Source: Actinomycetes bacterium
GTDB taxonomy: Bacteria > Actinomycetota > Thermoleophilia > Solirubrobacterales > Solirubrobacteraceae
Direction: 5' to 3'
Length of the DNA stretch: 6,259 nucleotides
NCBI GenBank assembly: GCA_023405705.1
Contig: JAEXXR010000131.1
Span: forward strand, 1-6,259
The notes beneath the pieces are model-generated. The model worked only from the letters and a program-made list of their open reading frames with translations, made no database searches and had not been told where the DNA came from. The position numbers and the translations under genes are program-made. The stretch's first letter is position 1. Each line of letters begins with the position of its first letter. Positions 1 through 5,966 of the stretch are shown in pieces.

Positions 1-836
1 GCGCCGACCTGCGGCAGGGCGCGCGCCGCGATCGGCGCCATCGCCGGCCCGGAGCCGATGCTGAGGACCGGCCGCGCGGCGACCTCGGCGAGCGGCACCG
101 CGCCGCCGCTGGAGGTCGTCATCAGCAACCGGCCGCCGAAGCCCTCGGCGCGCAGGCGCCGCTCGAAGTCGTCGAGGTAGTCGGACATCAGCGGCTTGAG
201 CGACGCGTCGAGCGCGGTCGCGACCGTGCGGCGGTACTCGCGCAGGACCGGGTTGACGCGATGGCCGAGCGAGACCGGCACGCCCGGCAGCGCCTCCGCC
301 AGCAACTGCTCGACGGCCAGCTCGTGCACCGGCTCGACGACCGACCACAGCAGCGAGACGGCGACCGCCTCCGCCCCGCGCTCGACCAGCTCGGCGGCGA
401 CGCGGGCGACGTGGTCGCGGTCGAGCGGCCGCACGACGGCGCCGCCGCGGTCGATCCGCTCGGGGATCTCGTACGTCCACGCGCGCGGCACGAGCGGCGG
501 CGGCGTCGGGGTCGCGAAGTCGAACAGGCTCGGACGGCCGCCCTCGCGCAGCGACAGCACGTCCGGGTGGCCGGCGGTGACGAGCAGCGCCGTCTTCGCC
601 GTGCGGCCCTCGGTGACGGCGTTCAGGGCGCGCGTCGTCGCGTGCAGCAGCAGCTCGCCGCGGCCGAGCAGCTCGGCGCGCGCGCAGCCGTGATCGCGCG
701 CGGCCAGGTCGAAGGCGTCGAGCACCCCGGCGACGGGGTCGGCGTGGACGGTCAGCGCCTTGTAGGCGCGCGTCTCGCCGCCCGCCCCGACGACGAGGTC
801 GGTGAAGGTGCCGCCGCAGTCGATCGCGAAGCGCAT
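1..836 (-). CDS. Hydantoinase A / oxoprolinase-family protein, N-terminal part (cut by the left window edge)
   Basis: The frame is open from an ATG at 836 to the window edge (278 codons). The product begins MRFAIDCGGTFTDLVV, the glycine-rich phosphate-binding start of the HyuA/5-oxoprolinase/acetone carboxylase family. Family landmarks follow in order: HATTRALNAVTEGRTAKTAL (about 65-84), equivalent to the usual HGTT..TNA..ER block; VTAGHPDVL (86-94); an SLLWS strand (161-165); HRVNPVLREYRRTVATALDA (192-211), very typical of the family; TSSGG (241-245); and the SIGSGPAMAPIAA nucleotide-binding loop (259-271). Members are ATP-dependent and hydrolyse cyclic amides such as hydantoins or 5-oxoproline, or serve as subunits of acetone/acetophenone carboxylases; the substrate here cannot be read. 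Full-length proteins are usually 500-700 residues, so over half is missing. The start overlaps the upstream PLP-enzyme stop as TGATG with no strong Shine-Dalgarno sequence, implying translational coupling. A HyuB partner, if present, would lie beyond the left edge. Confidence 0.9.
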   Translation of the reverse strand, partial: MRFAIDCGGTFTDLVVGAGGETRAYKALTVHADPVAGVLDAFDLAARDHGCARAELLGRGELLLHATTRALNAVTEGRTAKTALLVTAGHPDVLSLREGGRPSLFDFATPTPPPLVPRAWTYEIPERIDRGGAVVRPLDRDHVARVAAELVERGAEAVAVSLLWSVVEPVHELAVEQLLAEALPGVPVSLGHRVNPVLREYRRTVATALDASLKPLMSDYLDDFERRLRAEGFGGRLLMTTSSGGAVPLAEVAARPVLSIGSGPAMAPIAARALPQVG

Positions 837-2104
837 CACTCGGCGACGTAGGTCGCTTCGCGCTGGAGCGAGCGGACGCGCCCGGTGCGGGCGTCGGCCA
901 CGGCGGCCTCCAGGTCGGCGAGGTAGCGGTCGACGGTCGTCTGCGGCACCGGTCCGAGCAGCAGGTGCAGGCCCTCGGGCTCGGCGATCCGGGCGGGGTG
1001 CCAGCCGCGGCGGGTCAGCGCCTCGGCGACGTCGGGGATCGCGACGCCGGCCGCTGAGGAGGCGACGGCGAGGACGCCCAGCTCGGGCGCGACGACCGGC
1101 TCCAGCGGCTCCGGCAGCCGCTCGACGATCTGCGCCTGCAGCTCGAGGATCCCGCGCGCGATCTCGCGGTAGCCGTCGGCGCCGAGGAATCTCAGCACCG
1201 CCCAGGCGGCGACGACCGGTGAGGCGGGACGGGAGCCGGTGAAGCCGCGGCGGCTGTAGCTGCCGGTCGGCCAGACCGTCCCGGCGCGGTAGGTGTGGAA
1301 CTCGGCCAGCGCCTCGTCTCTGAGCGACAGCGTCGAGATCCCGTGCGGGCAGAAGCCGAACTTGTGCAGGTCGGCGGAGACCGACCAGACGCCCGGGACG
1401 GAGAAGTCGAACGCCGGCAGGCCGGGACCGACCTCGTCGACCCAGCGGTGCAGGAAGCCGCCGACGCAGGCGTCGACGTGCATCCAGACGCCGTGCTCGG
1501 CTGCGACGGCGGACAGCTCGGCGATCGGGTCGACGACGCCGTGCGCGTACTGCGGCGCGGAGCCGGCGACGAGGATCACGTCGTCGTCGATCGCGGCCTC
1601 GACCTGCTCGGCGTCGGCGCGCCAGTCGGCGCCGACGCCGACGCGCGTGACGGCGAGGTCCATCACCTCGGCGGCCTTGTCGAAGGAGGGGTGCGCGGTG
1701 AGCGGGACGACGAGCCGCGGTCGCGCGATCCCGGGGCGGTTGGCGCGCGCCCAGTCGCGCGCGGCCTTGATCGCGAGGAAGTTGCTCTCGGTCCCGCCGC
1801 CCGTCGGCGTGACCGCGCCCGCGGCCGGGACGCGGAGGATGTCGCCGACCATCGCGCGCAGCTCGGCGTCGATCCGCGCGAGGCTCGGGACGGCCGTCGT
1901 GAAGAAGGCGTTGGCGTGCATGAAGGCGCCGTGCGCGAGCCGCGCGACGCCCTGGAGGTCGGCCGGGAGGACCGGCCACCAGAGGTCGAAGGTGCCGTCG
2001 ACGAGCGGCGGGTCCCCGGCCTGGTAGCAGCCGAGGTCGCGCTCGATGTCGTTCCACCCGCGGCCGCCGTCCGGCAGCCCGTCCAGTCGTCTGTGTTCAC
2101 TCAT
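836..2104 (-). CDS. PLP-dependent lyase/decarboxylase, sphingosine-1-phosphate-lyase-like
   Basis: This 422-residue protein of PLP fold type I resembles sphinganine-1-phosphate aldolases (group II decarboxylase superfamily). Visible landmarks are TGGGTESNFLA (101-111, phosphate binding), TAHPSFDKAAEV (136-147, with His138 expected to stack on the PLP ring), GSAPQYAHGVVDPI (181-194), HVDACVGGF (209-217, Asp211 contacting the pyridine nitrogen), SVSADLHKFGFCPHG (241-255, Lys248 as Schiff-base lysine) and FTGSRPASPVVAAWA (288-302). The order and wording match eukaryotic and bacterial S1P lyases more closely than glutamate or aromatic amino acid decarboxylases. It is shorter than typical lyases and has no N-terminal membrane helix, so it is probably soluble. 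Family chemistry is retro-aldol cleavage of a phosphorylated amino alcohol or amino acid decarboxylation; which applies is unknown. It is the first gene of an operon with the HyuA-like gene. The start ATG lacks a Shine-Dalgarno sequence and sits close behind a putative promoter, so the mRNA may be nearly leaderless. Confidence 0.85.
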   Translation of the reverse strand: MSEHRRLDGLPDGGRGWNDIERDLGCYQAGDPPLVDGTFDLWWPVLPADLQGVARLAHGAFMHANAFFTTAVPSLARIDAELRAMVGDILRVPAAGAVTPTGGGTESNFLAIKAARDWARANRPGIARPRLVVPLTAHPSFDKAAEVMDLAVTRVGVGADWRADAEQVEAAIDDDVILVAGSAPQYAHGVVDPIAELSAVAAEHGVWMHVDACVGGFLHRWVDEVGPGLPAFDFSVPGVWSVSADLHKFGFCPHGISTLSLRDEALAEFHTYRAGTVWPTGSYSRRGFTGSRPASPVVAAWAVLRFLGADGYREIARGILELQAQIVERLPEPLEPVVAPELGVLAVASSAAGVAIPDVAEALTRRGWHPARIAEPEGLHLLLGPVPQTTVDRYLADLEAAVADARTGRVRSLQREATYVAE

Positions 2105-2124
2105 ATGATTGGCGGAGTGAATAC
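2093..2124. promoter_or_regulatory. Inverted repeat, candidate operator over the PLP-lyase start
   Basis: GTGTTCACTC (2093-2102) and GAGTGAATAC (2115-2124) form 10-bp arms with one mismatch around a 12-bp spacer. The repeat covers the start codon of the PLP enzyme gene (2104-2102) and the putative -10 region of its promoter. Its position between two divergent genes, one of which encodes a TetR-type regulator, suggests repressor binding and autoregulation. The segment GTTCACTCATAT (2095-2106) also recurs almost unchanged in the divergent region near 4421. Protein binding is an inference. Confidence 0.5.
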
Positions 2125-2159: not shown

Positions 2160-3206
2160 ATGTTGCGCCCCGTGCCACGCAGACCCAGCGAGCAGACGAG
2201 CGCCGCCTGGCTGTGGCGGCGGATCAGCGAGGACGGCCGCCACGCCTTCTGTCCCCGCTGCGCCGCCACCCGCCGCTTCGCCCCGCAGCGCGGGGACATC
2301 CGCTACGTCTGCAGAACCTGCGGGCTGGCGCTCGACCCGCGTGCGGGGACCGCGTTCGAGGCGTCGCGCACGCCGCTTGGGACGTGGTTCGTGGCGACCG
2401 CGATGCTGCGCGAGGACCCCGAGCTGACCCCGACGGAGCTGGCCGCCGCGGCCGGCGTCTCCTACGCGACCTCGTGGCGGATGCTGCGGCGGCTGCGCGA
2501 GCTGCCGCCGAACGCCTTCGAGCTGCGCGCCGGCGCGGGCGAGGAGCCCGACCGGGAGTCGCCCGCGGGGACCGCACCGCCGGGCGACCTCGTCTCGGAC
2601 CCGAGACTGGCGTCGATCCTGCGCGCCGCGGCGACCGCGATCGTCGCGCGCGGCTTCGCCGACACGCGCATCAGCGACATCGCGCGCGAGGCCGGCGTCT
2701 CGCCCGCGACCGTCCTGCATCACTTCCGCACGCGCGAGGGCGTGCTGCTGGCGGCGCTGAGATGGGCCGGCGCCGTCGCGACGACGCAGCTGACCGAGGA
2801 GCTCGACCCGGACGCCTCGGCGCGCGACTGGCTGCGCGAGTCGATCCGCTCGATCCTGCCGGCCGACGAGCAGCAGCGCGCCGAGGCGGTCCTGCAGCTG
2901 GAGTGCTGGAACGTCGCCGTCCACGAGCCCGAGCTGGTCGTCCACACCGAGGAGATCGCCCGCCGCTGGCGCGAGACGCTCGCAGAGCTCGTCCAGCACG
3001 GCGCCGACCGCGGCGAGTTCGCGACCGGCCTGCCCGCGGCCGACGTCGCCGACATGCTCGCCGCCGCGCTCAACGGCCTCTGGCCGAAGGTCCTGCTCGG
3101 CTTCGAGGACTACCCGCGCGAGCGCTGCATCGCGCTCGCCGACGCCCTGCTCGACACGCTCCTGCCGGCGACCTCCGGCACGACCGACGCCGTGACCGTC
3201 CGCTAG
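2160..3206 (+). CDS. Fusion regulator: IS1595-type transposase zinc-ribbon/HTH module joined to a TetR-family repressor
   Basis: This 348-residue protein has two recognisable halves. Residues 27-116 match the N-terminal DNA-binding region of IS1595-type transposases: a zinc ribbon with CPRC (31-34) and CRTCG (51-55), then GTAFEASRTPLGTWFVA (63-79) and an HTH segment, ELAAAAGVSYATSWRMLRRL (93-112). No DDE nuclease domain follows, so it cannot transpose. A Glu/Gly/Pro-rich linker (about 121-148) leads to a complete TetR protein: an HTH at 149-198 (ILRAAATAIVARGF, ISDIAREAGVSPATVLHHF) and an all-helical ligand/dimerisation domain to the end. It is expected to be a cytoplasmic transcription factor with two DNA-binding modules, probably acting on the divergent PLP-lyase operon and itself. 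No Shine-Dalgarno sequence precedes the ATG; a GTG at 2172 (residue 5) is an alternative start and would not alter the domains. The reading frame is continuous with uniform codon use, which argues against a recent insertion or assembly artefact. Confidence 0.85.
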   Translation: MLRPVPRRPSEQTSAAWLWRRISEDGRHAFCPRCAATRRFAPQRGDIRYVCRTCGLALDPRAGTAFEASRTPLGTWFVATAMLREDPELTPTELAAAAGVSYATSWRMLRRLRELPPNAFELRAGAGEEPDRESPAGTAPPGDLVSDPRLASILRAAATAIVARGFADTRISDIAREAGVSPATVLHHFRTREGVLLAALRWAGAVATTQLTEELDPDASARDWLRESIRSILPADEQQRAEAVLQLECWNVAVHEPELVVHTEEIARRWRETLAELVQHGADRGEFATGLPAADVADMLAAALNGLWPKVLLGFEDYPRERCIALADALLDTLLPATSGTTDAVTVR

Positions 3207-4393: not shown

Positions 4394-4410
4394 GGGACGG
4401 GCGCAGCGAT

Positions 4411-4432
4411 GTATATATACGTTCATTCATAT
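4411..4432. promoter_or_regulatory. Candidate TetR-type operator between acyl-CoA dehydrogenase and SDR genes
   Basis: The site begins with a perfect 10-bp palindrome, GTATATATAC (4411-4420), running into GTTCATTCATAT (4421-4432). Read on the minus strand, TATGAATGAACGTATATA (4431-4414) matches 14 of 18 positions of the palindromic site at 6026-6043. The 12-mer at 4421-4432 matches 11 of 12 positions at 2095-2106. A regulator could control both divergent genes from here; the adjacent TetR genes are the obvious candidates. Confidence 0.5.
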
Positions 4433-4440
4433 CGTGGCAG
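4412..4440 (-). promoter_or_regulatory. Putative promoter of the acyl-CoA dehydrogenase gene
   Basis: On the minus strand, CTGCCA (4440-4435, 4 of 6 matches to TTGACA) is followed after exactly 17 bp by TATATA (4417-4412, 4 of 6 matches to TATAAT). Transcription would start near 4405, leaving a leader of about 25 nt that contains the AGGAG site. The operator-like repeat fills the spacer and overlaps the -10 box, as expected for repression. It is one of the few A+T-rich spots in the window. Confidence 0.5.
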
Positions 4441-4483
4441 ACGCCGGTGCCCGCGCGCCGCGTCCTCGCCCCCTCCGACGAAC

Positions 4484-4489
4484 AGGTGG
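4484..4489 (+). promoter_or_regulatory. Ribosome binding site deciding the SDR start at 4496
   Basis: AGGTGG lies 6 nt before the ATG at 4496. It favours this start over the in-frame ATG at 4409, which has no Shine-Dalgarno sequence, lies within the opposing promoter and would add 29 residues with no SDR similarity. Confidence 0.65.
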
Positions 4490-4495
4490 TTCCCC

Positions 4496-5311
4496 ATGAG
4501 CGCACGGCCGCTCGACTCGCTCCTCGGTCGCCTCGACGGCAAGGTCGCCCTGATCACCGGCACGGCCGGCGGGATCGGCCTGGAGACCGCGAAGCTGCTG
4601 CACGCGGCCGGCGCGACGGTCGTCGGCGCCGACCTCGCGCCGCGCCCCCCGGAGCTCGACGGCGTCGTCGAGGAGGCCGACCACCACGTCGTCGACGTCT
4701 CCGACCCCGACGCGATCGAGCGGCTCGTCGCGGCGACCGTCGCCCGCCACGGCGCGGTCGACATCGTCCACGGCAACGCCGGCATCAACGTCCCCGGCCG
4801 CCTCCACAGCCTCTCGGTCGACGACTACCGGCGGGTGATGGGCGTCTGCTGCGACGCGAACGCCTTCCTCGTCCGCGCCGCCGTCCCGCACATGCGACTG
4901 CGCGGCGGCGTCTTCGTCTTCACCTCGTCGATCAGCGGCATCGCCGCGACGCCGCGCTCACCCGTCTACAACATGGCCAAGCACGCGATGATCGGCCTGG
5001 CGCAGTCGGTCGCGGCCGACTACGGGCGCCAGGGGATCCGCGCCGTCGCGCTCGTCGCGGGCCCGACGCGCACGCCGATGGGCGACAGGCTGTGGCCCGA
5101 GGGCAGCCCGGTGCGCGAGGCGTTCGTGCGCTCGACGGCGGTCGGCCGCCTGGCCGAGCCGAGCGAGCAGGCGCGGGCGGTGCTGTTCGCGGTCCTGCCG
5201 GGCAACGACTCGCTGACCGGCTGCACGATCACCGTCGACGGCGGCGCGACCGGCGGCTGGAACGAGATGGGGCACGGCATGTACGCCGCGCCGCCCTCGC
5301 CTAGCGCTTGA
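4496..5311 (+). CDS. Short-chain dehydrogenase/reductase (SDR), classical type
   Basis: The product has 271 residues from the ATG at 4496. It has the classical SDR pattern: cofactor loop TGTAGGIG (21-28), a GNAG motif (93-96), TSSISG with Ser145 as the likely catalytic serine (143-148), and YNMAK with Tyr158 and Lys162 (158-162). The second strand ends VVGAD (42-46), and an acidic residue there usually indicates NAD(H) rather than NADP(H). VDGGATGGW near the C-terminus is the usual SDR end. Where the catalytic tetrad normally has Asn (VNL..), this protein reads VCCDANAF, so Cys118 or Cys119 replaces it. The likely role is oxidation of a secondary alcohol or reduction of a ketone in the pathway of the divergent acyl-CoA dehydrogenase; the substrate is unknown. 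Its 3' end overlaps the convergent TetR gene by 11 bp. Confidence 0.92.
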   Translation: MSARPLDSLLGRLDGKVALITGTAGGIGLETAKLLHAAGATVVGADLAPRPPELDGVVEEADHHVVDVSDPDAIERLVAATVARHGAVDIVHGNAGINVPGRLHSLSVDDYRRVMGVCCDANAFLVRAAVPHMRLRGGVFVFTSSISGIAATPRSPVYNMAKHAMIGLAQSVAADYGRQGIRAVALVAGPTRTPMGDRLWPEGSPVREAFVRSTAVGRLAEPSEQARAVLFAVLPGNDSLTGCTITVDGGATGGWNEMGHGMYAAPPSPSA

Positions 5312-5966
5312 GGACGCTGTGCAGCGCGAGCTCGGCGTGATGCGCGGCGAGGTCGCCGTGGCCGATCTTCGCGTCCGGCCCGAACGCCTCCGACAGGCGC
5401 ATCGCGACGTTCGCGAGCGCCGTCGCGGTCACCTTCGCCGTGCTGCCGCCCTTCGTGGGCGGCAGCGAGAAGAGGTCCGCCTCGACGCCGTCGGCGAGGA
5501 TCCGCTCCAGCAGCCTGCGGTGTCTGAGACGGCGGTTGATGACCTCTCTGCGCTGCGCCTCCGGCAGGTGGCGGTACTCGAGCGTGCCGACGACCGCCAG
5601 TCTGCGCTCGTCGGAATGGAAGCGCGCGAACGCCGTCACCACCGCCCGCAGCCGCTCGCGCGGGTCCTCGCCGGCCTCCGCCAGCTCGGCGTCGATCCGC
5701 GCGTCGAGGTGGTCGTGCGACTCGGTCACCAGCTCGTAGAGGATGTCCTCCTTGGAGCCGTAGTGGTTGTAGAGCGCTCCCGGCGTGAGGTCGCAGGCGC
5801 CCATGATGTCGCGCACCGTCGTGGCGTGGAAGCCGCGGTCGTAGAACAGCTCCAGGGCCGCGTCGTGGATGCGGTCGCGCGGGTGCCGCGCACGGGCAGA
5901 CGCGCTCGCTCCGCCGCCTCTGGCGGCTCTGCGCGCTCTGCGTGAGCTGGGAGCGGTCGAGGCCAT
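5301..5966 (-). CDS. TetR/AcrR-family transcriptional regulator
   Basis: This 221-residue protein has an Arg/Ala-rich N-terminal tail (1-28) and then a canonical TetR HTH: RIHDAALELFYDRGFHATTV (32-51), RDIMGACDLTPGALYNHYGS (52-71) and KEDILYELV (72-80). The helical C-terminal domain (about 85-221) includes FHSDERRLAVVGTLEYRHL (116-134) and resembles repressors of fatty acid or steroid catabolism of the KstR2/FadR kind; that resemblance is an impression, not a search result. It probably represses the divergent SDR at 6079 and itself, and perhaps the acyl-CoA dehydrogenase/SDR pair, which shares a related site, with an acyl-CoA or pathway intermediate as inducer. The ATG at 5966 lacks a clear Shine-Dalgarno sequence. 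A GGAGGG-preceded ATG at 6003 is out of frame, so the exact N-terminus is uncertain. Confidence 0.92.
   Translation of the reverse strand: MASTAPSSRRARRAARGGGASASARARHPRDRIHDAALELFYDRGFHATTVRDIMGACDLTPGALYNHYGSKEDILYELVTESHDHLDARIDAELAEAGEDPRERLRAVVTAFARFHSDERRLAVVGTLEYRHLPEAQRREVINRRLRHRRLLERILADGVEADLFSLPPTKGGSTAKVTATALANVAMRLSEAFGPDAKIGHGDLAAHHAELALHSVLKR

Follow-up and report, generated by a model that had tools for sequence, protein, structure and literature searches.

A TetR regulator with an IS1595 transposase-type zinc ribbon and helix-turn-helix head belongs to a conserved family of fusions

One open reading frame in a 6,259-nucleotide stretch of Solirubrobacteraceae DNA (contig JAEXXR010000131.1 of assembly GCA_023405705.1; the whole stretch is called the window here, and its GC fraction is 0.74) appears to carry two DNA-binding modules of different kinds, a zinc ribbon and helix-turn-helix (HTH) of the IS1595 transposase type followed by a TetR repressor. 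The locus raises the question of whether this is a genuine protein of a recurring kind and, if so, what a transposase-type head would do on a ligand-responsive regulator. The fused order and the kept cysteines of the ribbon recur as a conserved family, and the protein is probably a two-headed TetR regulator, a ligand-controlled dimer in which the transposase-type head serves as a second DNA contact.

The fused frame and its family

The frame runs on the forward strand from an ATG at position 2160 to a stop codon at 3204-3206. The open reading frame check, the translation, and the domain scans bear out an earlier note on this DNA, which had read one continuous frame of 348 codons with zinc-ribbon cysteines at residues 31, 34, 51, and 54, an intact TetR HTH and ligand domain, and no DDE catalytic domain. 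The four cysteines of the 348-residue protein stand at those positions, and the predicted model places ribbon strands at residues 28-31, 36-42, and 49-51. TetR_N (PF00440) was matched over residues 153-199 (E 1.2e-12) and TetR_C_6 (PF13977) over residues 221-335 (E 3.2e-25; 89 bits versus a cut-off of 27), both well above the curated cut-offs. The model of the TetR half is all-helical past its HTH, with helices across residues 192-334, and both marks of the TetR family, a TetR_N HTH and an all-helical ligand and dimer domain, are present. The DDE/ISXO2-like domain PF12762 was absent among the Pfam matches listed for the protein (25 of 34 families) and among those of NCBIfam (21 of 21). The codon signal is even. 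The GC content at third codon positions is similar in the three parts of the gene and gives no indication that the fusion is recent.

A search with residues 1-150 returned four proteins of 345-355 residues, 74-76% identical over that part, together with one transposase containing PF12760 and PF12762 (31%, E 4e-7). The profile of the resulting five sequences identified six more distant fused proteins, three of which bear the JGI name AcrR family regulator/transposase-like protein, and an eleven-sequence profile identified 62 proteins at E ≤ 1e-25 out of 7996 scored candidates. The earlier note had staked the fusion on homologues with the same architecture; such homologues exist, and the 63 relatives found make 64 family rows with the window protein. 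An alignment of 59 rows, including the window protein, was built without P0059, P0060, P0063, P0064, and P0065, which are incomplete or broken. In 58 of these rows, at least 85% of the columns are filled in each of the head, TetR_N, and TetR_C; the exception is P0058. Cysteines 31, 34, 51, and 54 are kept in 58, 58, 59, and 59 of the 59 rows, respectively, and both misses are gaps in the late-starting P0058. At E ≤ 0.01, PF00440 was matched in 59 of the 59 members, PF13977 in 58, and the zinc ribbon family PF12760 in 50. PF12762 was absent from the precomputed domain annotation of the 62 profile-search rows. By identity the family falls into a close (78-80%) and a distant (28-34%) subgroup, and its members occur on contigs as long as 913 kb.

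The starts of the proteins vary slightly: P0002 and P0004 begin M-x-x-PVPR as does the window protein, P0003 begins four residues later, and P0005 begins earlier. P0052 and P0056 are apparently off-frame late in the C terminus, P0058 both there and in the head, and P0064 in part; these are perhaps sequencing errors. The plasmid records matched by the window protein include 7 of 34 from Thermus and 5 of 34 from Azospirillum, and none of the 34 covers at least 80% of it. Of the 14 records matched by its relative P0010, 13 are from Actinomycetota, and none covers at least 80% of P0010. No member was confirmed by a scan of viral contigs with one alignment (A3) or by scans of species genomes with the window protein and with another alignment (A1), the latter requiring exact short peptide patterns and so carrying little weight.

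Relation of the head to IS1595 transposases

The head was compared with an alignment of seven IS1595-type transposases by use of hhalign. The close subgroup gave 99.2% (E 1.2e-19) over residues 5-115 and the whole fused family 99.6% (E 7.7e-25), with both the ribbon and the HTH aligning to the transposase N-termini, so that by profile comparison the head has the zinc ribbon and HTH expected of an IS1595 N-terminus. When the window protein was searched against plasmids with tblastn, annotated IS1595 transposases were matched by the head alone; among the records listed (30 of 34) these matches came from five organisms, spanned residues 27-142, 4-112, 30-136, 31-127, and 28-115, and had E values of 2e-9 to 7e-6. 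A Geminicoccaceae transposase (L003) is 36% identical to the head over residues 27-142. Taken by itself, the window's sequence shows the resemblance weakly: PF12760 was not among all 15 Pfam families at E ≤ 1 when residues 1-122 were scanned alone, a point against the relationship, and the NCBIfam IS1595 model gave 20.5 bits at residues 68-115 versus a cut-off of 75. Judged on the profiles, the head is homologous to the N-termini of IS1595-family transposases over the ribbon and HTH. The likeness to these transposases (PF12760 plus PF12762) extends over residues 5-115 and comprises the CxxC...CxxC ribbon, the GT.FE.S..PL..W segment, and the HTH, whereas the 348-residue protein has no detected PF12762 and carries a TetR regulator in its place.

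In a tree of the module (14 family heads and 7 transposases) the family heads form one clade with support of 73/31, which favors a single origin of the head, and L003 lies on the fused-family side of a branch with support of 93/94. In a tree built from the TetR halves of 10 fused rows the two subgroups stay apart, implying two changes; they group as a single clade in 10% of the bootstrap replicates, and this grouping is not rejected (p-AU 0.251). Transfer of the module from a transposase to a regulator would be the simplest reading, the module tree not proving the direction. The earlier note's reading, a transposase N-terminus without the DDE domain joined to a TetR regulator, is supported as to architecture and homology.

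Two shorter proteins resemble the head. A Sphingobium plasmid (L009:1486-1893) encodes a 135-residue hypothetical protein at a site where an IS1595-type transposase is matched by its N-terminal part alone, and it may be a stand-alone head or a remnant. The 125-residue viral protein model A0A8S5VRN3, whose likeness is limited to the head, matched it with E 1.8e-6 and TMq 0.64 and is perhaps a stand-alone regulator.

The TetR half and other two-headed TetRs

Nothing is missing from the TetR half, which is a typical one of the BetI type (PF00440 plus PF13977); its nearest solved structures are those of Saccharomonospora viridis (4nel/4ich/4jnn/4kwa). Its scores are below the curated cut-offs of the BetI equivalogs (60.3 versus 201.3 bits for TIGR03384; 56.1 versus 118 for NF001978). 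The deposited chain of 4ich has 311 residues, of which about 100 preceding the TetR part lie outside the match.

The earlier note had taken it as singular for a TetR to have a second DNA-binding module; the feature is less singular than that, as XRE-headed TetRs and double TetRs exist. Three plasmid-borne relatives of the TetR half, from Citricoccus (P0066), Streptomyces, and Rhodococcus, have an XRE-type HTH in front of the TetR; the latter two were found by tblastn, which covered 88-90% of P0066, and the three, all on actinobacterial plasmids, cluster together in the TetR tree with support of 93/85. They share with the window protein a second HTH ahead of TetR but differ in that the head is of the Cro/C1 kind (HTH_31/HTH_3), and the Pfam matches of P0066 include no zinc ribbon. 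The Citricoccus gene precedes a 3-keto-5-aminohexanoate cleavage gene. Double TetRs such as Mce3R (PMC11667970) likewise have two HTH modules per chain, but both modules are TetR; that paper describes the operator of Mce3R as asymmetric and refers to 204 double TetRs predicted in Actinomycetes. Searches of the open PubMed Central literature, subscription papers lying outside that coverage, brought up no account of a fusion of the present kind, which agrees with the earlier note's statement that it knew of no such family. The fused family is thus apparently new to description.

Proposed action at the locus and its alternatives

We propose that the C-terminal half, as a BetI-type TetR, dimerizes and would let go of DNA upon binding a small, probably amine-type ligand. 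The N-terminal half, an IS1595-type and presumably zinc-binding ribbon with its HTH but no catalytic domain, would be tethered by a flexible linker (predicted pLDDT below 50 at residues 122-137) and would supply a second DNA contact per subunit, making the operator longer or sharper. The likely operator would lie between the fused gene and the divergent gene for a pyridoxal phosphate (PLP)-dependent enzyme, giving control of the latter as well as autoregulation. Mean identities between the two subgroups, computed over all 59 rows with the broken ones included, are 36% for the head, 13% for the linker, 48% for TetR_N, and 23% for TetR_C; of these four regions the linker has diverged furthest, and both DNA-binding modules are the best kept. 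Better conservation of the DNA-binding parts than of the ligand part fits two working DNA-binding modules and a changing ligand. More tentatively, and with somewhat greater doubt than assurance, each ligand-controlled regulator of this family may recognize a pair of different DNA elements simultaneously, with the TetR head contacting one and a domesticated IS1595 head the other, which would place a transposon-end code within a metabolic operator code.

The strongest alternative, itself unlikely, is that the head has lost DNA binding and instead modulates the TetR half as a zinc-dependent domain with a structural, protein-contact, or redox/metal-sensing role. Zinc ribbons commonly contact proteins, and the failure of the lone window head to match PF12760 indicates some drift; however, the HTH is conserved alongside the ribbon, and its residues Tyr102, Thr104, and Arg107, in the segment aligned with the transposase HTH, are identical throughout an 11-row alignment and reach at least 90% conservation in the 59 rows. 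Somewhat less credible is an ordinary BetI-like TetR whose head adds affinity or stability only and leaves operator specificity unchanged. The completeness of the TetR half speaks for it, as do nine other fetched relatives (L013-L021) that are TetRs of 187-253 residues, too short for such a head, but the identity of the head between the distant subgroups exceeds that of TetR_C. We regard as improbable that the head binds insertion-sequence ends, with IS1595-type elements being repressed or silenced and the TetR half serving as the sensor: the N-terminal part of an IS1595 transposase, to which the head is homologous, is presumed to recognize element ends, but the scanned genes of the window are metabolic or regulatory. 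An assembly chimera, a linker frameshift of the kind the earlier note had envisaged, or the making of two proteins has almost no claim left, for although the linker is weakly conserved and disordered in the model and an internal start is possible on sequence alone, chimera and frameshift are very unlikely because all 59 aligned rows share the fused order, with the same junction in sequences of differing origin and on long contigs, and because the codon signal is even; on account of this conserved fusion, chimera, frameshift, and chance were rejected.

An imperfect palindrome between the divergent genes is a candidate operator (Table 1). Its 10-nt arms are complementary at 9 of 10 positions across a 12-nt gap, and they do not recur elsewhere in the window at up to 2 mismatches. 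Several points weigh against this assignment. Dinucleotide shuffling of 2080-2169 produced an equally good palindrome in 71 of 3000 trials; the same criterion is satisfied in the window by 57 arm pairs, mostly GC-rich, overlapping registers of one repeat being counted separately; and the left arm extends to the start codon of the PLP-enzyme gene. The site that the earlier note had singled out for footprinting does contain a palindrome, though not a strong one.

An amine-type ligand is our best guess, because of six plasmid neighborhoods and the ligands of the S. viridis structures. Thirteen plasmid relatives of the TetR half were chosen and fetched and ten were annotated, none of the ten being a fused homologue. 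Amine-related genes were near six of them (3-keto-5-aminohexanoate cleavage, arginase family, agmatinase, agmatine deiminase, glycine betaine transport, and cytosine permease plus agmatine deiminase); the other four annotated stretches have no such genes.

Among neighboring genes, the product of the divergent gene has its nearest matches in the PDB in sphingosine-1-phosphate lyases (E 1.5e-71), followed by an MfnA-type tyrosine decarboxylase (5e-32); among solved structures it is thus closer to the lyases than to amino-acid decarboxylases. Of the 12 records it matches, only 3 are actinobacterial, 2 from Embleya and 1 from Nonomuraea, the latter with the top identity (44.8%). The family scores of the hydantoinase/oxoprolinase-type subunit are far under the curated cut-offs. 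Downstream of the fused regulator are a convergent acyl-CoA dehydrogenase gene, a short-chain dehydrogenase/reductase (SDR) gene, and another TetR gene, an ordinary one of the TetR_C_24 type (5301-5966, reverse strand), whose end overlaps that of the SDR gene. The acyl-CoA dehydrogenase matches 1836 records, and among the 10 listed 9 are from Actinomycetota.

Table 1. Features of the window and of plasmid-borne XRE-headed relatives
Feature	Position	Strand	Basis
Fused regulator, 348 residues: zinc ribbon, HTH, linker, and TetR	2160..3206	+	Frame, Pfam, alignment, model
Zinc ribbon, IS1595 type, residues ~28-60 (C31, C34, C51, C54)	2241..2339	+	Cys conservation, model
HTH of the transposase-type head, residues 73-115 (helices 73-85, 91-98, 102-113)	2376..2504	+	
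Linker, residues ~117-147	2508..2600	+	Alignment, predicted model
TetR_N DNA-binding domain, residues 148-200	2601..2759	+	Pfam
TetR_C_6 (BetI-type) ligand and dimer domain, residues 201-337	2760..3170	+	
Candidate operator (weak), imperfect palindrome GTGTTCACTC-N12-GAGTGAATAC, between divergent genes	2093..2124	.	
PLP-dependent enzyme (sphingosine-1-phosphate-lyase-like / MfnA-decarboxylase-like), divergent, possible target	836..2104	-	Family scans, PDB search
Hydantoinase/oxoprolinase-type subunit, cut by window edge, directly behind PLP-enzyme gene on the same strand	3..833	-	NCBIfam
SDR gene	4409-5311	+	
XRE-headed TetR, Citricoccus (P0066)	L002:662-1531		Pfam: BetI-type
XRE-headed TetR, Streptomyces	L010:2450-3337		tblastn
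XRE-headed TetR, Rhodococcus	L011:2492-3295		tblastn

TetR proteins are used as biosensor parts and usually have one DNA-binding domain per subunit. They are counted among the most abundant bacterial regulators (PMC5882156). To judge from the XRE-headed relatives, TetRs of such kind may have carried different heads in different lineages. If the two-headed reading is true, the family would be a clean case of bacterial transposase domestication without the catalytic domain, and the effect of an extra head on operator length and specificity would become testable with it.
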